From Solirhodobacter olei (GTDB lineage: Bacteria; Pseudomonadota; Alphaproteobacteria; Rhodobacterales; Rhodobacteraceae): a DNA stretch of 64,000 nt. Position numbers and translations under genes: made by a program. Below are positions 3,549-64,000 of the stretch, one piece after another (the first letter of the stretch is position 1; each line of letters opens with the position of its first letter). The notes under the pieces were generated by a model that worked only from the letters and a program-made list of their open reading frames with translations, was not told where the DNA came from and searched no databases. Location: positions 124,001 to 188,000 of the forward strand of contig NZ_RRYH01000013.1 in assembly GCF_004010155.1 (NCBI RefSeq), read 5' to 3'.

Positions 3549-4589
3549 TCAAACGGGAACGGAATGGCCGGTGGCGAGGTCGAACCAGCGCGCGCGACCC
3601 TCGAGCGGGGCGAGGTGGAGGAGGTCTCCGGTCCGGACGGACGTATCGCTTTCGAGGATGGCGCGAAAGCCATGGCCCGCCACGTCGCAGGTCACGAGAA
3701 GGTGCGGCCCGAGCGGTTCGACGATCTTGACGTGGGCGGGTAGGCCTTTGGCCGCCGGGCGCAGGTCCTCGGGCCGGACGGCGAATTCCAGCGCCTCGCC
3801 ACTCTCGGGGCCGAGCACCGGCAGGCCGGCCACCTCCCATCCCCCAGCCCCGCGGTTTGCGGGCAGGAAGTTCATCGGCGGGTTGCCGATGAAGGCGCCG
3901 ACGAAGCGGGCGGCGGGGTTGCGGTAGACCTCGATCGGCTCGGCCGCCTGGAGGATATGGCCGCCCTGCATCACCGCGATGCGGTCGGCGAGGCTCATCG
4001 CCTCCACCTGGTCATGGGTGACGTAGATCGTGGTGGTCTGGCTTTCGGCAAGGATCCCCTTCAACTCCGCCCGCATCTCCAGCCTGAGCAGCGCGTCGAG
4101 GTTGGAGAGCGGCTCGTCCATCAGGATCACCGAGGGTTCCATGGCGAGCGCGCGCGCCACCGCGACGCGCTGGCGCTGCCCGCCCGAAAGCTGGCCGGAG
4201 TAGCGCTTGAGGAGCTGCTCGATATGCATCAGCTCCGCCGTCCTCTCCACCCGCCTTGTGATCTCGGCCATCGGCAGATTCTGCATGCGCAGGCCGAAGG
4301 CGATGTTCTCGAAGACGGTCAGATGCGGGAAGACGGCGTAGTTCTGGAACACCATGGCGATCCCGCGCTGGCGCGGCGGCAGGTGATCCACCCGGCGCCC
4401 GCCGATCCAGACCTCGCCGCCGCTGGCGCTCTCGAGCCCGGCGATGATGCGCAGAAGCGTGGTCTTGCCGCAGCCCGAGGCCCCAAGGAGGACCACGAAC
4501 TCCCGATCGGCCACCGTCAGGTCGACCGAGTGGAGGGCGGTGAAGGCGCCGAAGGTCTTTGCGACCCCTTTGATGACGATCTCGGCCAA
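3549..4589 (-). CDS. Sugar ABC transporter ATP-binding protein (MalK/UgpC type)
   Basis: 346 aa from a TTG start chosen because AGGAG lies 5 bases before it; the open frame continues far upstream through the permease gene but without family similarity there. Walker [10 protein letters not shown] is at about residues 36-44, the LSGGQ signature at 134-138 and Walker B ILMDEP at 155-160. The C-terminal roughly 100 residues form the OB-type regulatory domain typical of the CUT1 group (MalK, UgpC). It energises the two permeases encoded just upstream. It starts 9 bases after the preceding permease stop, so translation is probably coupled. Confidence 0.93.
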
Positions 4590-55310: not shown

Positions 55311-57110
55311 GTGACCGAGGCCGTGATACCACGAGCAAGGTCCATGATGACAAGCCGTGCCCTGCTGTTCTCGCTTATCGTAGCCATGGTCGTGGCCTGT
55401 GTCGCCTATGCTGCCGCCTGGCACTACGCGTTGCGCGCTTCCGACACGCGACTTGACCAGTCGCTCATCCTCGCGAGCTATTCCGTCGAAAGTGAAATAG
55501 CCCGCTTCCGGGCGTTGCCCGACGTGGTGACCGAGGATGCTCGCATCGCCCGCGCCCTCTCCGCCGCCGCATCGCCAGAGGCTATTTCCGAAGCCAATCA
55601 CTACCTGCAGATCATCAGCGCCCGGGCCGGGGCAAACCAGCTCTATCTGCTCGATGGCACAGGGACGGTGATAGCGGCGTCGAACTGGGACACGAAGGAC
55701 AGTTTTGTCGGCCAGAACTACGCCTTTCGCCCCTACTTCAAGGACGCGATGGCCGACGGTCGGGGACAGTTCTATGCCATCGGTGTGACCACGGGGGTTC
55801 CTGGCTACTTCCTGTCGACGCGCGTGGGTAACGCATCGGCCCCTGGCGTTGTAGTGGCCAAGATCAGCCTCGCCTCTCTGGAGCGGACCTGGCGGCGCGC
55901 CGCGAGTGCGACGGCAGTGGCGGATCGGACTGGGGTCGTGTTCCTGTCGGGCGTGGCGGGGTGGAAATACCATCCCCTGCAGCCGCTGTCGCCCGACACG
56001 CTAGCCGCGATCGCGGCCCGCCGCACCTACGACGGCGAGGATATCCCCCGGCTGAAACCGATCGCGCTGGCGCAAGGCCCCGCCGCGCTGACCCTTCCCG
56101 GCCCGGCGGGCGGAACGCTTCGGGGGCGCATGATACCGCTCGGCCCCAGCGGCTGGCGGGTCATTTCTGCCGAACCAATGGCGCCGCTGCGCAATGGAGC
56201 GCTTCTCTGGGCTTTCGGCGCTTCGCTTGTCGCGATGGCGATGACGGCCATCGCCATGGTGCTAAACCAGCGCCGGCAGCTGATCCAGCTACGCCTGCGA
56301 CAGGGCGAGGTACTGGAAGCACGGGTGCGCGAACGGACGCAGGAGCTTGCCCACGAGGTTGAGGCGAGGCGCCGTACCGAGGCCGATCTGCGCGCCGCCC
56401 AAGAAACCATGATCCATACCGAGAAGATGGCCGCGCTTGGGCGCATGTCGGCGGCCATCGTGCATGAACTGAGCCAGCCGCTGGCCGCGATGGAAGCCAC
56501 GCTTGCCGCGACGGAACTCTCCTCAGACCCTGGCGAGACCAGCACTCGCATCGGCAAGGTGCGGGGCCTCGTGCGGCGGATGCAGCGGACTACGAAGCAC
56601 CTCAAGAGCTTCAGTCGCAAGGAGCAGAACACGTTGACGTTGACCGATCTCAACGCGGTCGCGCGCAACGCGCTGGAGCTGGTCGCTCCCCGTGCAAAGG
56701 CTGGTGGCATCGTCCCCGAAGTCAACGCCGATGCCGAGCCGGTGGTCGCGCTCGCGGGGCCGGTGCGACTGGAACAGGTCTGCCTCAATCTGCTGCTCAA
56801 CGCGTTCGACGCGGTCGAGGGACAGGCCGGGCCCAGCATTGTGCTCGCAATCGTTCGGGTTGGGGACGAGGCCCGGCTAAGCGTGACGGACAATGGAGCG
56901 GGCATCCCGACGGAGAACCTCTCGCGCGTCTCGGAGCCATTTTTCTCCACGAAGGTATCGGGTGACGGCCTCGGTCTCGGGCTGTCAGTGAGCCAGGCGA
57001 TCCTTGAGGAGTTCGGTGGCCGACTCGAGATTGTCTCGACTGAGGGCGAGGGCACATGCGTCGCGATGGTGCTGCCAGTGGCACGCGCAATGGAGACGGC
57101 AGCACAATGA
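55311..57110 (+). CDS. DctB-type membrane sensor histidine kinase
   Basis: 599 aa from a GTG with GGGAGGGAGG upstream (ATG at 55344 is the alternative). Helix 1 (about 15-38), a periplasmic double Cache/PAS sensor region (about 40-290), helix 2 (about 297-317), a coiled linker, then the phospho-acceptor domain with His385 in AAIVHELSQPLAAMEA. The ATPase domain has NLLLNAFDAVEG (N box), DNGAGIP (G1), FFSTKVSGDGLGLGLS (F/G2). The C4-dicarboxylate DctB architecture suggests an organic acid ligand, perhaps that of the TAXI-TRAP upstream. It is coupled to the regulator gene by ATGA. Confidence 0.93.
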   Translation: MTEAVIPRARSMMTSRALLFSLIVAMVVACVAYAAAWHYALRASDTRLDQSLILASYSVESEIARFRALPDVVTEDARIARALSAAASPEAISEANHYLQIISARAGANQLYLLDGTGTVIAASNWDTKDSFVGQNYAFRPYFKDAMADGRGQFYAIGVTTGVPGYFLSTRVGNASAPGVVVAKISLASLERTWRRAASATAVADRTGVVFLSGVAGWKYHPLQPLSPDTLAAIAARRTYDGEDIPRLKPIALAQGPAALTLPGPAGGTLRGRMIPLGPSGWRVISAEPMAPLRNGALLWAFGASLVAMAMTAIAMVLNQRRQLIQLRLRQGEVLEARVRERTQELAHEVEARRRTEADLRAAQETMIHTEKMAALGRMSAAIVHELSQPLAAMEATLAATELSSDPGETSTRIGKVRGLVRRMQRTTKHLKSFSRKEQNTLTLTDLNAVARNALELVAPRAKAGGIVPEVNADAEPVVALAGPVRLEQVCLNLLLNAFDAVEGQAGPSIVLAIVRVGDEARLSVTDNGAGIPTENLSRVSEPFFSTKVSGDGLGLGLSVSQAILEEFGGRLEIVSTEGEGTCVAMVLPVARAMETAAQ

Positions 57111-58405
57111 AGGGGAGGGTCTTCGTCATCGACGACGATGCCGACCACCGCGAGGCGGCGGCCGATCTGCTGTCCGCCGCTGGGCATGACGCGGTCTGCT
57201 TTGCCAGCGCTGCAGAGGCCCTGCTGGTGCTCGACGCCGCCGATCCAGGGGTAATCCTAACCGATCTCAGAATGCCGGAAATCGATGGCTTCGACCTCAT
57301 TGCGGCGCTCAGGGATCATGGCGGCGATCACCCGGTGATCCTGATGACCGGACATGGCGACGTGGCACAGGCCGTGCGGGCAATCCGTGAAGGGGCGGAG
57401 GACTTCCTGGAAAAACCCTATGACGCCGGTCACCTCCTTCTGGTCGTGGACCGCACACTCAAAGCGCGCGAGACCCGGAGGGAGCTTGACCGGTTGCGCC
57501 AGGCGGGCGGCGCGTCGGAGATTCTTGGAGAATGTCTCGGGATTCAAGCGCTGCGTCAGCGGATCTCGGCGCTGGCGACGCTCGATGTGGATGTCATCGT
57601 GACCGGGCCGACGGGGACCGGCAAAGAGCTCGTCGCCCGCGCGCTGCATTCCAAGAGCCCGCGCAGCGCCGGGCGCTACGTGGCGATCAACTGCGCCGCG
57701 CTGCCCGAGGCCCTGTTCGAGGCCGAAATGTTCGGCTATGCCATTGGCGCCTTTCCGGGCGCGACGGGGGAAAAGCCGGGTAAGCTTGAGCTGGCCTCGG
57801 GCGGTACACTCGTTCTCGACGAGATCGAGGCGATGCCCCTGGCACTACAAGCGAAGCTTCTGCGGGCGATCCAAGAGCGTGCACTGGAGCGGCTCGGCGA
57901 GAACCGCGTGCGCCCCTTGGACTTGCGCATCGTGGCCATCGCCAAGACCGACCTCGCAGCCTTGACATATGATGGTAGCTTTCGCGCGGATTTGTTCTAC
58001 CGCATCGCCGGAGCAGAGATCCGAACCCTTCCACTGTCCGAGATGCAGGAGGATATCCCGCTTCTTTTCGCGCATTTCGTGGCGCAGGCGGCAGCGCGGC
58101 AGGGGTTGGCGATTCCAGAGGTTGGATTCGGGGCTCGCGCAGCGCTACGCAAGCGAGCCTGGCCGGGCAATGTGCGCGAACTGAAGGCTGCTGCAGAGCG
58201 TTTCGCGCTCGGCATCGACGCAGTGACACCGGCAGATGTCCGGCCGATTACGGGCGCCACCCTGGCCGACCGCATTGCAGAGTTCGAAGCCCGCGAGATC
58301 AGCGGGGCTCTGCAACGCTGCCGAGGCAATACAGAGCGCGCTGCTGAACTGCTTGGGCTACCTCGGCGCACGCTGACCGACAAAATGAAACGATACGGAC
58401 TATGA
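57107..58405 (+). CDS. DctD/NtrC-type response regulator with AAA+ domain and GAFPGA variant
   Basis: 432 aa. Receiver domain (1-120) with the phospho-acceptor Asp53 in ILTDLRMP and Lys103 in LEKP. AAA+ domain: Walker A GPTGTGKE at 167-174, the sigma-54 contact loop reads GAFPGA (214-219) where GAFTGA is standard, Walker B LVLDEIEAMP. C-terminal Fis-type helix-turn-helix: ALQRCRGNTERAAELLGLPRRTL. With Thr replaced by Pro, contact to sigma-54 could be altered, although the variant occurs in relatives in my recollection. It likely activates the TRAP transporter genes. Confidence 0.92.
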   Translation: MKGRVFVIDDDADHREAAADLLSAAGHDAVCFASAAEALLVLDAADPGVILTDLRMPEIDGFDLIAALRDHGGDHPVILMTGHGDVAQAVRAIREGAEDFLEKPYDAGHLLLVVDRTLKARETRRELDRLRQAGGASEILGECLGIQALRQRISALATLDVDVIVTGPTGTGKELVARALHSKSPRSAGRYVAINCAALPEALFEAEMFGYAIGAFPGATGEKPGKLELASGGTLVLDEIEAMPLALQAKLLRAIQERALERLGENRVRPLDLRIVAIAKTDLAALTYDGSFRADLFYRIAGAEIRTLPLSEMQEDIPLLFAHFVAQAAARQGLAIPEVGFGARAALRKRAWPGNVRELKAAAERFALGIDAVTPADVRPITGATLADRIAEFEAREISGALQRCRGNTERAAELLGLPRRTLTDKMKRYGL

Positions 58406-59080: not shown

Positions 59081-59090
59081 TTGACAAATA

Positions 59091-59102
59091 TGGAACGTTC
59101 CA
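59091..59102. promoter_or_regulatory. LacI-type operator (TGGAACGTTCCA), upstream copy
   Basis: Perfect 12-bp palindrome directly after a TTGACA box (59081-59086) that could be the -35 element of the following operon. Central CG is typical of LacI-family sites. Confidence 0.7.
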
Positions 59103-59111
59103 ATTAACGTC

Positions 59112-59123
59112 TGGAACGTTCCA
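59112..59123. promoter_or_regulatory. LacI-type operator (TGGAACGTTCCA), downstream copy
   Basis: Identical 12-bp palindrome, centre 21 bp from the first (two helical turns), ending 20 bases before the Gfo/Idh start codon. Together they flank the presumed -10 region (TTAACG, 59104-59109), a layout for strong repression. Confidence 0.7.
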
Positions 59124-59143: not shown

Positions 59144-60139
59144 ATGCGTTGGGGGCTTGCAGGGGCGAGCACGATTGCGTCCGAGCACATGATCCCAGCG
59201 TTTCGGGCGCATGGCGACGAGGTCTCGTGGGTCGCCAGCGGCAACCCTGATCGCGCGCTTCACTACGCGGCCGACCATGGCATCGGCCGGGCCTTCGGTT
59301 CGCTGGAGGAAGCGCTCGCGGCCGGCGGCGTCGACGCCGTCTACATCTCCTCGACCAACGAGAAGCACGCACCTCAGGCACTCGCGGCTATCGCTGCCGG
59401 CGCTCATGTCCTTTGTGAGAAGCCACTCGCAATGAATCTGGCGGAGGCGGCGGATATGGTGGAGAAGGCGCAGCAGGCGGGTGTCGTCTTCGCTACCAAT
59501 CACCACCTGCGCTGTGCGGGTAGCCACAGGGCAATTCGCGACCTGATCGCCGCGGGTGCAGTCGGCCAAGTGTTGTCGATGAGAGTGCACCACGCCGTGC
59601 ACCTGCCGCCGCACCTCCAGGGATGGCGCATCAACGATGCCGGGGCAGGCGGTGGCGTGGTCCCCGACATTACCGTTCATGACGCTGACACGGTGCGCTT
59701 CCTGCTGGGCGAAGACCCGATAGAGGTCACTGCGCTTGATGGGACCTCCGGCATGGGCGAGGGCGTCGAGGATTCCGTCATGTCGATCTGGGCAATGCCG
59801 TCCGGTGCGATGGTTTTCGCGCACGAGAGCTTCACCCACCCGTTCGCCGGTAGCGCTGTCGAGGTGCATGGCACTTTGGGGTCGATTTTTGCGCAGGGTG
59901 TCATGACCCAGCGGCCCGTCGGTGAGATCGAGCTTGTCACCGCCGACGGGCGACGGAACGTCCCCTTCTCCAACCACAATCTCTACGTCGAAGGCGTCCG
60001 GATGTTCCGGGAGGCCGTCCGGGGGAGTGGTCAGCCGTCGGCGACCGGGTTGGATGGCATCAACTCCCTGAGGGTGGCCCTTGCAGTTCGCGAGGCCGCG
60101 CGGAGCGGGCAGCGTGTCGCGGTGAACTACGGAGCATGA
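59144..60139 (+). CDS. Gfo/Idh/MocA-family oxidoreductase
   Basis: 331 aa from the ATG after GGAGGG; a frame start 6 codons earlier lies in the operator region. N-terminal Rossmann GLAGASTIASEH (4-15) with the family's EKPLAMN motif at 92-98; the C-terminal alpha/beta domain has the substrate-side DITVHDADTVRFLLG segment with its His. Uses NAD(P) to oxidise or reduce a sugar, polyol or related hydroxy acid. First gene of an operon with CoA-ester enzymes, so a polyhydroxy acid could be a substrate (inference). Its stop overlaps the CoA-transferase start. Confidence 0.91.
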   Translation: MRWGLAGASTIASEHMIPAFRAHGDEVSWVASGNPDRALHYAADHGIGRAFGSLEEALAAGGVDAVYISSTNEKHAPQALAAIAAGAHVLCEKPLAMNLAEAADMVEKAQQAGVVFATNHHLRCAGSHRAIRDLIAAGAVGQVLSMRVHHAVHLPPHLQGWRINDAGAGGGVVPDITVHDADTVRFLLGEDPIEVTALDGTSGMGEGVEDSVMSIWAMPSGAMVFAHESFTHPFAGSAVEVHGTLGSIFAQGVMTQRPVGEIELVTADGRRNVPFSNHNLYVEGVRMFREAVRGSGQPSATGLDGINSLRVALAVREAARSGQRVAVNYGA

Positions 60140-61713
60140 TGATGACCAAGGTTGTATCTCCGGAAGAAGCCGCGCGCCGCATCCCCGACGGGGCCGTGCT
60201 CACGGTATCGTCCTCGTCCGCGCTCGGTTGCCCGGATCGCATTCTGCGGGCAATCGGAGAGCGTTTCGAAGAGGAGGAGCACCCGCGTGGCCTGACCGCG
60301 CTTCATCCGATTGCGGCGGGTGACATGTATGGCGTCAAAGGCATCGATCACATCGCCAAGGACGGCCTGCTGACGACCATCCTCGCAGGGTCCTACCCCT
60401 CGGGTCCGTCCAATCTGCCGATGCCCGAGATTTGGAAGATGGTGGTCGAGGATCGCGTCGCGGCGTATAACGTGCCGTCTGGCATCCTCTTCGATATGCA
60501 TCGCGATGCGGCCGCTCGGCGGCCAGGTGTGCTGACAAGGGTCGGGCTCGATACCTTTGTCGACCCGATCCGCGAAGGTTGCGCGATGAACGCGAAGGGT
60601 GCGGCCCGGCCCATTGTCGCGCGCGTCGAGTTTGCCGGCGAAACCTGGCTGCACTTTCCAAATGTCCAGCCCGACGTTTGCATTCTGCGCGCAACGACAG
60701 CGGACGAGCGCGGCAACCTGACCTACGAGCACGAAGGCGCCTATCTCGGTGGTCTGGAACAGGCCATTGCCGTTCGCAACCAAGGCGGCCTTGTCATCGC
60801 TCAGGTTCAGCGTGTTACCGCCGCCGGATCGCTCCGGCCCCATGACGTGCGGGTGCCGGCGCACCTGGTGGACCTGGTCGTCGTTGATCGCGACCAGAAG
60901 CAGACCTGCGAGACGCTTTATGACCCGGCCATTTCAGGCCAGATAATGCGGCCCTGGTCGAGCTTCCATCTTGCCGAGCATGGGGTGGAGAAGGTCATCG
61001 CCCGCCGTGCCGCGATGGAGCTGAAGGCGGGGATGACCGCCAACCTTGGCTTCGGCATCTCAGCCATCGTGCCGCGCGTCTTGCTCGAGGAGGGCGCCCC
61101 TCAGGCTGTTACCTGGGCGATTGAGCAGGGAGCCGTTGGCGGCATGCCTTTGACGGGATTCGCCTTCGGCTGTTCATCGAACGCAGATGCCTTCATGCCC
61201 TCGCCGCAGCAGTTCATCTACTTTCAGGGCGGCGGTTTCGACATGTCCTTCCTCTCATTCCTGGAGGTGGACATCGAGGGCAACGTGAACGTCTCCAAGC
61301 TCGGCAAGAAGCCCTACCTCACCGCAGGCTGCGGGGGCTTCGTCGACATCACCGCCCATGCGCGAGAGATCGTCTTCTCGGGCTGGTTCGAGGCAGGGGC
61401 GGAGGTCGAACTGAGCGATACGGGCCTGACGGTGAAGAAGCCCGGAAAGTTCACTAAATTTGTGGAGAAGGTCGAGCATGTGACCTTCTCGGGCCGCCGG
61501 GCGCGCGAGCAGGGACAGGTGATCCTCTACGTCACCGAACGCTGCGTGGTGCGGCTGACGGACTCAGGCCTCGTCGCGACGGAAATCATGCCGGGGATCG
61601 ATCCCGAGCGGGATATCGTCGCGGCCTCGCAGGGCCGGGTGCAGGTTGCCCCGGACGCGAAGACCATGCCGCTGAGCCTCCTCAAGCGTGGTGCGATGGG
61701 GTGGCAACCATGA
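60136..61713 (+). CDS. Acyl-CoA:acetate/3-ketoacid CoA-transferase (YdiF/propionate CoA-transferase type)
   Basis: 525 aa; three successive ATGs (60136, 60139, 60142) are possible starts, the first overlapping the upstream stop. Fused alpha and beta parts: GAVLTVSSSSALGCPDRIL in the N-terminal half, and the beta part with the covalent catalytic Glu at about residue 330 in IEQGAVGG. FLEVDIEGNVNVSKLG is typical of YdiF-like enzymes. It exchanges CoA between an acyl-CoA and the pathway's carboxylic acid. Followed by a coupled enoyl-CoA hydratase gene. Confidence 0.93.
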   Translation: MMMTKVVSPEEAARRIPDGAVLTVSSSSALGCPDRILRAIGERFEEEEHPRGLTALHPIAAGDMYGVKGIDHIAKDGLLTTILAGSYPSGPSNLPMPEIWKMVVEDRVAAYNVPSGILFDMHRDAAARRPGVLTRVGLDTFVDPIREGCAMNAKGAARPIVARVEFAGETWLHFPNVQPDVCILRATTADERGNLTYEHEGAYLGGLEQAIAVRNQGGLVIAQVQRVTAAGSLRPHDVRVPAHLVDLVVVDRDQKQTCETLYDPAISGQIMRPWSSFHLAEHGVEKVIARRAAMELKAGMTANLGFGISAIVPRVLLEEGAPQAVTWAIEQGAVGGMPLTGFAFGCSSNADAFMPSPQQFIYFQGGGFDMSFLSFLEVDIEGNVNVSKLGKKPYLTAGCGGFVDITAHAREIVFSGWFEAGAEVELSDTGLTVKKPGKFTKFVEKVEHVTFSGRRAREQGQVILYVTERCVVRLTDSGLVATEIMPGIDPERDIVAASQGRVQVAPDAKTMPLSLLKRGAMGWQP

Positions 61714-62477
61714 GCCAGATCCATATGCATCTGCGCGGTCCGGTCGCTGAATTGCGGCTCGACAATCCGTCCAAGCTGAACGCCTTCACCGTCGAGATGC
61801 TGCGCCAACTCGCAGAGTTCTGCGACACGCTCGACCGCCGGTCCGACGTGCGGCTGGTGATAGTGACTGCCGAGGGCGAGCGGGCCTTTTGCGCTGGGGC
61901 GGACATTACTGCCTGGGGCGGGCTCTCTCCTGCAGAATTTGCAAGGCACTGGGTGCGCGACGGGCACCGCATTTTCGATCGGCTCGCCCGGCTCTCGAAG
62001 CCGACCGTGGCGGCAATCTCGGGGCATGCCTTCGGCGGCGGTCTGGAGCTGGCGGCGGCCTGCGATATCCGGGTGATGGCACCCAAAGCGACGCTGGCAC
62101 TTCCGGAAGCCGGAGTGGGGATCGTACCCGGATGGTCAGGCACTCAGAGGCTGGCCCGGCTGATGCCTGAGCCGGTGCTGAAGGAGATGGCCCTTTTTGG
62201 CCGTCGTCTGTCAGCGGAACGCGCCCTGGCTTGCGGTTTCGTATCCGAGGTTGCCGAGGACGCGCGGGCGGCGGCAGAGGCATTGGCCGAGCGCGTAATT
62301 ACGAGCTCGTCCCGTTCGATCGAGATCGCCAAGGCGATGATCCATGCGGCCGTGGGCGAGGACCGGGGGGCATCGGTCGAGATGCTCGGCTCGGGAATGA
62401 TTGCCGCAACCGATGATCGTGCGGAGGGCGTCGCCGCCTTCCGTGAGAAGCGCAAGCCAGAATTTCCGGGGACCTGA
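61710..62477 (+). CDS. Enoyl-CoA hydratase/isomerase family protein (crotonase)
   Basis: 255 aa from the ATG overlapping the CoA-transferase stop (ATGA); a GTG at 61701 is less likely. Crotonase features: FCAGADITAW and GHAFGGGLELAA (oxyanion hole), the second acidic residue in LPEAGVGIVPGWSGTQRLARL. C-terminal EGVAAFREKRKPEF is the common ending. It hydrates or otherwise rearranges the CoA ester made by the preceding enzyme; the product is unknown. Confidence 0.94.
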   Translation: MSQIHMHLRGPVAELRLDNPSKLNAFTVEMLRQLAEFCDTLDRRSDVRLVIVTAEGERAFCAGADITAWGGLSPAEFARHWVRDGHRIFDRLARLSKPTVAAISGHAFGGGLELAAACDIRVMAPKATLALPEAGVGIVPGWSGTQRLARLMPEPVLKEMALFGRRLSAERALACGFVSEVAEDARAAAEALAERVITSSSRSIEIAKAMIHAAVGEDRGASVEMLGSGMIAATDDRAEGVAAFREKRKPEFPGT

Positions 62478-62479
62478 TC

Positions 62480-64000
62480 ATGACCGAGTTCACCCTCATC
62501 GCCGCATCCGCAGCCGTCCATCATGACATCGTAGAGTGCCGCCATCTCATCGACGGCGCCTGGCGGGCCAGCGAGGATGGCGCCATCTCGGAGCGGGTCT
62601 CCCCGTCGCATGGGATTGTCGTCAGCCGCTCGGCAAAGGGCGGGACGACAGAAACGGAAGCCGCCATTGCCGCCGCCCGCAAGGCCTTCGACGGCGGCGT
62701 CTGGAGCAAGGCGAGCGGCAAGAGCCGTGCCACGGTCCTGCTCAAGGTTGCCGAGTTGATCGAGCGCGACGCGGAGAAGATGGCCCGCGTGGAGACGCTG
62801 GAGACCGGCAAGCCGATTACGCAGGCCTTCGGTGAGGTCTCTGGCGCAGCGGACCTCTGGCGCTACGCCGCCTCGCTCGCCCGGACAATGCACGGCGAAA
62901 GCCACAACACGCTCGGCCCCGACATGCTGGGTGTGGTGCTGAAAGAGCCGATCGGCGTTGTCTCCGTGATCACGCCGTGGAACTTCCCGTTCTGGATCCT
63001 TAGCCAGAAGCTCCCGTTCGCGCTTGCTGCAGGCTGCACATGTGTCGTGAAGCCGTCGGAACTCACGCCTTCCACTACCGTCATGCTGGGTGAGCTGCTG
63101 ATCGAGGCCGGGTTGCCGTCCGGGGTGGTCAATATCGTGCTCGGTTACGGCCAGCCGGTCGGTGCGCTAATGGCGGAACATCCGGAGGTGGACATGATCA
63201 CCTTCACCGGTTCCACCGCGGTCGGCCGTTCCATTGCCTCTGCAGCCTCGGGCACCTTGAAAAAGGTGGCGCTGGAGCTTGGGGGCAAGAATCCGCAGGT
63301 GATCTTCCCCGATGCCGCGATCGATGACGCGGCCGACGCGATCACCTTCGGCGTCTACTTCAATGCCGGCGAATGCTGCAATTCCAGTAGCCGCATCATC
63401 GTCCATGAGGACGTGGCCGAAGCGGTGGTGGAAAAGGTCGTAGCACTCTCGCGCAAGGTGGCCTTCGGGGATCCGCTGAACCCGGAGACGCAGGTGGGGG
63501 CCATCGTCTCGACGGCGCATCAACAGAAAATCGACGGCTATGTCCGCGATGCGGTCGCAGCGGGCGCAAAGGTCTGCCTCGGCGGAGCGGCGCTGAAGGT
63601 CGATGGCCTTCCCGGCGAGTTCTACCAGCCCACCGTCGTCGCCGGCGTCACGCCGGACATGGCGATTGCGCGCGAGGAGGTTTTCGGGCCGGTCCTGTCG
63701 GTTCTGACGTTCCGGAGCTTTGACGGGGCGGTCGCACTGGCCAACGACGCCGCCTACGGCCTCTCGGCCGGGGTCTGGAGTGACAGCGTGCACACCTGCC
63801 TCGATTTCGCCCGTCAGGTTGAGGCGGGGACTGTCTGGACAAACACCTGGATGGACGGCTTTCCGGAGCTGACCTTCGGCGGCGTCAAACAGAGCGGCCT
63901 TGGCCGCGAGATCGGGCCCTATGGGCTGGAGGAGTTTCTCGAAGTGAAGACGCTCGCGATGCGGATCGGTCGCACGCGGGCACCTTGGGTGAAAGCTTCC
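62480..64000 (+). CDS. Aldehyde dehydrogenase (betaine-aldehyde/aminoaldehyde-like), 3' end outside window
   Basis: The frame starts 2 bases after the enoyl-CoA hydratase stop and is open for 507 codons to the last base, so the stop lies beyond the window. Complete catalytic set: Rossmann TPWNFPFWILSQKLPFALA (about 165-183), FTGSTAVG, Glu266 in LELGGKNP and Cys300 in NAGECCNSS (Glu in place of the usual Gln of NxGQxC). EEVFGPV and FGGVKQSGLGRE follow. An N-terminal extension of about 20 residues is atypical. It oxidises an aldehyde to an acid at the end or the beginning of the CoA pathway. Confidence 0.93.
   Translation, partial: MTEFTLIAASAAVHHDIVECRHLIDGAWRASEDGAISERVSPSHGIVVSRSAKGGTTETEAAIAAARKAFDGGVWSKASGKSRATVLLKVAELIERDAEKMARVETLETGKPITQAFGEVSGAADLWRYAASLARTMHGESHNTLGPDMLGVVLKEPIGVVSVITPWNFPFWILSQKLPFALAAGCTCVVKPSELTPSTTVMLGELLIEAGLPSGVVNIVLGYGQPVGALMAEHPEVDMITFTGSTAVGRSIASAASGTLKKVALELGGKNPQVIFPDAAIDDAADAITFGVYFNAGECCNSSSRIIVHEDVAEAVVEKVVALSRKVAFGDPLNPETQVGAIVSTAHQQKIDGYVRDAVAAGAKVCLGGAALKVDGLPGEFYQPTVVAGVTPDMAIAREEVFGPVLSVLTFRSFDGAVALANDAAYGLSAGVWSDSVHTCLDFARQVEAGTVWTNTWMDGFPELTFGGVKQSGLGREIGPYGLEEFLEVKTLAMRIGRTRAPWVKAS

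Follow-up and report, generated by a model that had tools for sequence, protein, structure and literature searches.

A conserved gene cluster of Solirhodobacter olei and a candidate CoA-dependent route for 1,5-anhydro sugars

Gene content of the locus

The window considered here is a stretch of 64,000 nucleotides from Solirhodobacter olei (G000:C29:124001-188000), taken from a 4.78-Mb draft genome in 122 contigs, and its right-hand end carries the beginning of a putative sugar-catabolic operon. Four consecutive open reading frames (ORFs) on the + strand lie head to tail at 59144-64003 and encode a Gfo/Idh oxidoreductase, a CoA-transferase, a crotonase and an aldehyde dehydrogenase (ALDH). The junctions of the CoA-transferase gene with the Gfo/Idh gene before it and the crotonase gene after it are 4-bp overlaps, and a gap of 2 bp separates the crotonase from the ALDH gene. 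All four families are confirmed by Pfam with scores far above the curated cut-offs, so that the overlapping or nearly overlapping set of four families noted in a preliminary description of this DNA is borne out. The operon is cut by the window edge, and nine further genes follow on the contig, which extends 20 kb past the window; the last of them ends at C29:199579 (C29 coordinates equal window coordinates plus 124000). The overlaps and the shared direction suggest that all thirteen genes form one transcript. The features of the locus are as follows, where Pfam among the downstream proteins was run on the solute-binding protein (SBP), GMC1, GMC2, LacI, the FAD protein and the kinase.

59081..59110, + strand: possible promoter, TTGACA at 59081-59086 and TAACGT at 59105-59110 with operator 1 between them; a weak candidate read from the sequence
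59091..59102, no strand: LacI-family operator 1, a perfect palindrome TGGAACGTTCCA; exact copy, kept before related operons
59112..59123, no strand: LacI-family operator 2, palindrome TGGAACGTTCCA, 21 bp from operator 1, start to start
59144..60139, + strand: Gfo/Idh oxidoreductase, AFR (1,5-anhydro-D-fructose reductase) family, 331 aa, ATG start; nearest solved structures 4koa and 2glx
60136..61713, + strand: family I CoA-transferase (YdiF/FadX type), 525 aa; Pfam, invariant E330
61710..62477, + strand: crotonase (enoyl-CoA hydratase/dehydratase type), 255 aa, likely ATG at 61710; nearest solved structure 5zai
62480..64000, + strand: ALDH, 507 aa, PF00171; the stop ends 3 bases past the window
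C29:188049-189314: SBP; Pfam
C29:189384-190277 and 190277-191158: two permeases; named from homologues in annotated records
C29:191164-192276: ABC ATPase; named from homologues in annotated records
C29:192273-193772: GMC1 oxidoreductase; Pfam
C29:193843-195426: GMC2 oxidoreductase; Pfam
C29:195505-196575: LacI regulator; Pfam
ending at C29:198644: FAD_binding_2 protein, likely GTG start overlapping the LacI stop; Pfam
C29:198641-199579: PfkB kinase, nearest to KdgK; Pfam and solved-structure match

The Gfo/Idh enzyme can be placed with some precision. Its best matches among solved structures are 4koa (E 9e-104, 53% identity across 331 residues) and 2glx (E 3e-103), both AFR enzymes of Sinorhizobium, and the E-value of the next-best solved family (3e-26) is weaker by 77 orders of magnitude. 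In AFR-type enzymes the lysine of the EKP motif and the aspartate and histidine of the DxxxH motif are catalytic; the corresponding K93, D175 and H179 do not vary among 81 relatives with at least 55% identity, and all three are shared with 4koa in the alignment. By full-length homology the protein is thus a member of the AFR family, clearly nearer to the solved AFR than to other Gfo/Idh enzymes, and this family identity indicates 1,5-anhydrofructose and related 1,5-anhydrohexitols as its likely substrates. The preliminary description had named the Gfo/Idh family correctly and had missed the AFR membership and with it the pointer to a likely substrate. Inositol 2-dehydrogenase (125 bits against a cut-off of 355) and levoglucosan dehydrogenase (77.8 against 650 bits) were considered as identities of the window enzyme and rejected on these scores.

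The three enzymes encoded next retain their catalytic residues. The CoA-transferase (CoA_trans PF01144, E 3.5e-21; nearest solved structure ydiF) has the conserved glutamate that is catalytic in family I CoA-transferases, E330, invariant in 119 relatives (at least 55% identity). The closest solved relative of the crotonase is the 3-hydroxypropionyl-CoA dehydratase 5zai, and E113 and E133, which correspond to the two catalytic glutamates of hydratase/dehydratase-type crotonases, are invariant in 116 relatives (at least 40% identity). The ALDH matches PF00171 with E 1e-164, and its C299, C300 and E266 are invariant in 97 relatives (at least 55% identity).

The downstream genes are those of a sugar operon. 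The SBP is closest to 4r2b (E 6e-166), followed by 5dvf, 5xpj, 8hqq (named sugar-binding) and 2b3b (named glucose-binding); we take 4r2b to have been solved with glucose and the transporter to be of the CUT1 class. A 1,5-anhydrohexitol is glucose or mannose minus the anomeric hydroxyl. The nearest solved structures to GMC1 are FAD glucose and fructose dehydrogenases, GMC2 is choline-dehydrogenase-like with a score below the cut-off, and the best solved relative of the kinase is the 2-dehydro-3-deoxygluconokinase 4e69 (E 3e-75). The FAD protein is only distantly related to the flavoproteins of succinate dehydrogenase, fumarate reductase and aspartate oxidase (hmmscan, PDB search), and structure prediction for its relatives is too poor for use (mean pLDDT 43.9). 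The sugar-derived substrate of the preliminary description fits the sugar-type ABC transporter, the two GMC enzymes, LacI and the KdgK-like kinase found here, and no sign of the sulfo compound that it also raised is seen among the operon genes. Propionate or carnitine metabolism, the placement it had named as speaking against its own reading, is rejected on the same downstream content.

Operator and conservation of the cluster

The LacI-type operators of the preliminary description hold up when viewed across the genome. The exact TGGAACGTTCCA occurs just twice in the draft genome, both times before the Gfo/Idh gene, and allowing one mismatch adds four more genomic places. Within the window alone, two matches are found at up to two mismatches, which is not above chance (mean 1.62); the operator is supported by the genome-wide search and by the related loci. 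The related loci are the best 80 of 523 relatives. Of these, 76 have at least 1.5 kb before the CoA-transferase. The region around the first-gene start, reaching from 400 bp before the called start to 90 bp past it, holds a site with no more than one mismatch in 71 of the 76, and 54 have two or more, the first two being spaced 21 or 22 bp apart in 32 of these 54. Elsewhere in these loci 31 such sites occur in 1.45 Mb, a reversed control pattern is found neither near the start nor elsewhere, and the exact operator is near the first-gene start in 29 of 80 loci. The LacI of the operon would be expected to bind this operator. In another genome (G143, locus L190) an exact copy at 3915 precedes a KdgK-like ORF that starts at 3943, away from the main cluster, which ties the KdgK-like kinase to the same regulon. 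A scan for consensus promoters listed nothing before the operon, including the TTGACA/TAACGT candidate, and a terminator scan listed none after its last gene.

Conservation was followed in 196 genomes of the order and 385 of the class. A CoA-transferase match (E <= 1e-60) is present in 49 of the 196, and a close form (at least 77% identity, one a fragment) in 32. AFR, at the same threshold of E <= 1e-60, is present in 25 of the 196 genomes, and each of these has a copy no more than 16 bp away from the close CoA-transferase. In every one of the 79 loci that extend 900 bp or more downstream, the CoA-transferase is followed by a crotonase. Where at least 9.5 kb downstream is available (68 loci), the SBP, both permeases, the ATPase and GMC1 are found in 66, the ALDH in 65 and AFR in 56; GMC2 (41) and SDR (48) are probably undercounted, as both genes are frequently close to where the fetched sequence stops. 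Outside the order the gene set is rare. In the class survey five genomes, that of the window among them, have AFR, and one of the remaining four has the CoA-transferase beside it; a CoA-transferase at E <= 1e-150 is present in eight.

The far end of the cluster exists in two forms. Most AFR-bearing relatives have variant I, with an SDR and DUF993 (PF06187) and often a MOFRL-type glycerate kinase, and the window has variant II, with the FAD protein and often a KdgK-like kinase. DUF993 is encoded by 22 of the 25 AFR genomes, although in a few its gene is on a different contig or adjoins a different CoA-transferase, and the three without it (G000, G099 and G158) all carry the FAD protein. Fourteen genomes with AFR and DUF993 were read past GMC1: all have the SDR, 13 have DUF993 within the stretch and none has the FAD protein. 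Conversely, of the nine genomes with the FAD protein beside the cluster none has DUF993, no stretch holds the SDR and five have the kinase. An exception is locus L054, with the FAD protein and the kinase upstream and an SDR downstream. These variant counts are not phylogenetically independent. In 30 DUF993 proteins Y201 and K229, 28 residues apart, are invariant, and K229 lies in a GIK motif of the reference. In the Schiff-base lyases of the DHDPS/NAL type, the tyrosine and the lysine of GIK are about 28 residues apart, and the pair in DUF993 may be comparable.

The cluster of Sinorhizobium meliloti Ak57 (CP090106.1) encodes a protein 99.7% identical to 4koa within a near-identical operon, and this ties the operon of the window to a solved and named AFR, beyond the family profile. 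The Ak57 order is LacI, AFR, CoA-transferase, crotonase (enoyl-CoA hydratase), ALDH, SBP, two permeases, ATPase, GMC1, SDR, GMC2 and glycerate kinase, with a divergent DUF993 gene and an exact TGGAACGTTCCA operator upstream of LacI. The two operons have in common AFR with the adjacent CoA-transferase, crotonase, ALDH, ABC transporter, two GMC enzymes, LacI and the operator, and the shared proteins other than LacI are 49-74% identical (crotonase 49%, CoA-transferase 65%, permease 74%). In the window the FAD protein and KdgK-like kinase replace the SDR, DUF993 and glycerate kinase, and LacI, only 40% identical, stands near the 3' end instead of in front. No DUF993 is found in the whole genome of the window, and neither SDR nor glycerate kinase in its cluster. 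From locus numbering (AFR being SMc04400) and gene order, we take the S. meliloti SBP gene to be smc04396. In one report, smc04396 is described as dextrin-induced (PMC4960864). Dextrin induction would fit, because 1,5-anhydrofructose arises from starch and glycogen according to a 2025 review (PMC12441222).

A proposed route through CoA esters

The cluster is conserved and very probably serves the use of 1,5-anhydro sugars as a class. It is proposed that the thirteen genes form a LacI-regulated operon for the uptake and aerobic catabolism of 1,5-anhydrohexitols (1,5-anhydro-D-fructose, -D-glucitol and -D-mannitol) by the route below, a reading to which we give a probability of roughly 0.45. Computation shows the gene set and its co-conservation, the operator, the membership of the first enzyme in the AFR family, the close match to the S. 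meliloti AFR operon and the presence of the catalytic residues, whereas every chemical step after AFR, the order of the steps and the role of GMC1 are inferred.

The glucose-type ABC transporter would import the 1,5-anhydrohexitol, after which GMC1 would oxidise C2 of 1,5-anhydroglucitol to give 1,5-anhydrofructose and AFR would reduce this to 1,5-anhydromannitol, with a net inversion at C2. GMC1 and AFR as such an oxidise-then-reduce pair are suggested by the Bradyrhizobium plasmid pNK6a (L208 8992-11667), where AFR and, after it, a GMC1 homologue (61%) are present but the other genes of the cluster are not. GMC2 and the ALDH would then convert the C6 alcohol to a carboxylate, and the resulting 1,5-anhydromannuronate would be turned by the CoA-transferase into a CoA ester, acidifying H5. 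With C6 as the carboxyl carbon, C5 with the ring oxygen as alpha and C4 with its hydroxyl as beta carbon, the crotonase could eliminate the 4-OH to form a 4,5-enol ether, and hydration at C5 would open the ring to HOOC-CO-CH2-CHOH-CHOH-CH2OH, that is 2-keto-3-deoxy-D-gluconate (KDG). Breakdown would be completed by the KdgK-like kinase and a KDPG aldolase encoded elsewhere; the genome of the window holds KDPG-aldolase-family genes (PF01081, best E 2.9e-69) outside the cluster. In variant I, DUF993 might act as a 2-keto-3-deoxy acid lyase or hydrolase, with the glycerate kinase taking the three-carbon acid.

By our own derivation from Fischer projections, C3 and C2 of 1,5-anhydro-D-mannitol would become C4 and C5 of D-erythro KDG, and 1,5-anhydroglucitol without the inversion at C2 would give 2-keto-3-deoxy-L-galactonate. 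The need for AFR, and its presence in one operon with a KdgK-like kinase, would thus be explained by the stereochemistry of KDG. Ring opening of the CoA ester to KDG by CoA-transferase and crotonase is the best mechanism we can offer and is put forward tentatively, at somewhat less than even odds; the complete claim is slightly more tentative still, namely an undescribed aerobic 1,5-anhydrohexitol pathway in which the ether ring of a sugar opens at the level of a CoA thioester, with the crotonase as a CoA-dependent sugar-acid dehydratase giving KDG and with two largely interchangeable lower branches. The preliminary description had a sugar or polyol acid converted to a CoA ester, dehydrated by the crotonase and linked to an aldehyde step, an outline that fits the downstream operon, with the CoA and dehydration steps as conjectural now as they were then.

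Parts of this chemistry have precedents. Uronate lyase and unsaturated glucuronyl hydrolase likewise combine 4,5-elimination beside a carboxyl group, hydration and ring opening to a keto-deoxy acid, whereas the elimination proposed here would take place on a CoA ester and be catalysed by a crotonase. The oxidation of 2-deoxyribose and deoxyribonate is CoA-dependent and involves a glycerate kinase, and so shares with the cluster a CoA-handled sugar acid and, in variant I, the glycerate kinase at the end; it differs in that the Pfam matches of the scanned proteins include no BKACE and DUF993, AFR and GMC enzymes are found instead. According to section 5.1 of the review, AFR and the growth of Sinorhizobium morelense on 1,5-anhydrofructose are already known, and gut bacteria use 1,5-anhydroglucitol and 1,5-anhydromannitol anaerobically through a PTS and the glycyl radical enzymes YbiW/PflD (PMC12441222). 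The proposed substrates are the same, and the operon of the window differs by the proposed oxidation and CoA activation.

Nearly every food item analysed contains 1,5-anhydroglucitol. Its 6-phosphate builds up in glycogen storage disease type 1b (GSD1b) and G6PC3 deficiency and is linked to the neutropenia of both disorders. The same section of the review calls for an aerobic 1,5-anhydroglucitol enzyme, which it gives as still unidentified (PMC12441222, section 5.1), and the operon supplies candidate genes for such use, as does its S. meliloti counterpart. The enzymes encoded around AFR point to a route, undescribed so far and compatible with oxygen, by which hard-to-degrade ring sugars would be opened via a CoA ester; if true, it would add CoA-ester chemistry to sugar catabolism and give DUF993, a domain of unknown function, a role. 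In a literature search of open-licence papers, the listings returned none linking the CoA-transferase, the crotonase or DUF993 to 1,5-anhydro sugars, and DUF993 was not named in any.

Competing explanations and related clusters

Several observations weigh against the proposed route. AFR is missing in 7 of the 32 genomes with the close CoA-transferase, and it occurs without a nearby CoA-transferase in three of the four other class genomes (in one of these on a 3.3-kb contig, in another with only 43-44% identity) on pNK6a, the single Bradyrhizobium plasmid that was viewed, and on G143:C8, genome G143 having a second AFR away from the close CoA-transferase. The operon kinase misses the NCBIfam KdgK equivalog cut-off (232 against 400 bits) and is labelled KdgK-like only, the glycerate kinase is found in just 8 of the 14 variant I genomes read past GMC1, and the proposed chemistry contains no required step for the FAD protein of variant II or the SDR of variant I. 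The LacI of S. meliloti is nearer to that of Microvirga (50%) than to that of the window (40%), so that the two regulators may be non-orthologous despite the same operator. The CoA-transferase/crotonase pair is also found in a cluster that resembles a TRAP-transporter operon (L202), which means that the pair alone does not define the substrate. Finally, 1,5-anhydromannitol in Sinorhizobium is reported, in the section of the review already cited, to be C1-hydroxylated to mannose by a still unidentified P450-like enzyme (PMC12441222, section 5.1).

This last report leads to an explanation with the same substrate, in which oxygenation at C1 turns 1,5-anhydromannitol into mannose, a conversion reported for S. 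morelense, and the mannose is oxidised to mannonate, with the CoA-transferase and crotonase as a CoA-dependent mannonate dehydratase leading to KDG. Dehydration of D-mannonate is well established to yield KDG likewise, the relation of GMC1 to FAD glucose dehydrogenases would suit it, and the review reports mannose formation (PMC12441222, section 5.1). However, no oxygenase family is found in the Pfam-scanned operon proteins and none is annotated in the S. meliloti operon, and the second GMC and the ALDH would be superfluous, so that we regard it as clearly unlikely. More weight, though still on the unlikely side, is given to an AFR-family enzyme acting on another 2-keto sugar (osone or glucose-like) in an operon for some other pyranose, sugar acid or anhydro sugar, for instance of the levoglucosan type, that passes through a CoA ester. 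The relatives of the SBP are sugar- or glucose-binding proteins in general, and six of the seven AFR-less clusters carry a levoglucosan-dehydrogenase-like Gfo/Idh instead (L138, L141, L142, L144, L169 and L171), while keeping the exact operator; the Gfo/Idh of AFR-less clusters fits levoglucosan dehydrogenase better than that of the window, with 305.9 bits, and is still below the cut-off. Against this stands the S. meliloti enzyme, practically the solved AFR itself, in the same type of operon and behind the same operator.

It is also conceivable that the CoA-transferase and crotonase lie off the main carbon route and handle a side product, for example by detoxifying reactive unsaturated keto sugars or removing an acyl group. 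The breadth of the CoA-transferase family leaves room for such a role, but the unbroken succession of the two genes, the invariance of both catalytic glutamates and the position of the pair between AFR and the ALDH, not at the end of the operon, make it quite improbable.

Related gene sets occur in other contexts. In L202 (G342:C95, 8938-17440) a related CoA-transferase/crotonase pair (63% and 43%) lies beside ORFs that resemble, by eye, Gfo/Idh, TRAP-transporter, SDR and enolase-superfamily proteins, perhaps another sugar-acid pathway with the same CoA chemistry. A third type of cluster (L044 14001-24650; L178-L182, L205) combines CoA-transferase, crotonase, acyl-CoA dehydrogenase, SDR and DUF993, in several cases with ETF, ALDH or GMC2 and twice (L180, L181) adjoining the same kind of ABC transporter; it is found on the S. 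meliloti plasmid RCAM1750 p_1 and in several other genomes. On pNK6a, AFR and the GMC1 homologue sit among transposases and adjoin an MFS permease, and AFR matches of the same score are present on 10 other Bradyrhizobium plasmids. Downstream of the operon in L010 (6656-9055) are two divergent ORFs that by eye are citrate-synthase-like, one with an N-terminal helix-turn-helix. Upstream of the operon in the window, ORFs at 55311-58405 resemble by eye a membrane sensor kinase and a sigma-54 response regulator of the DctB/DctD type.

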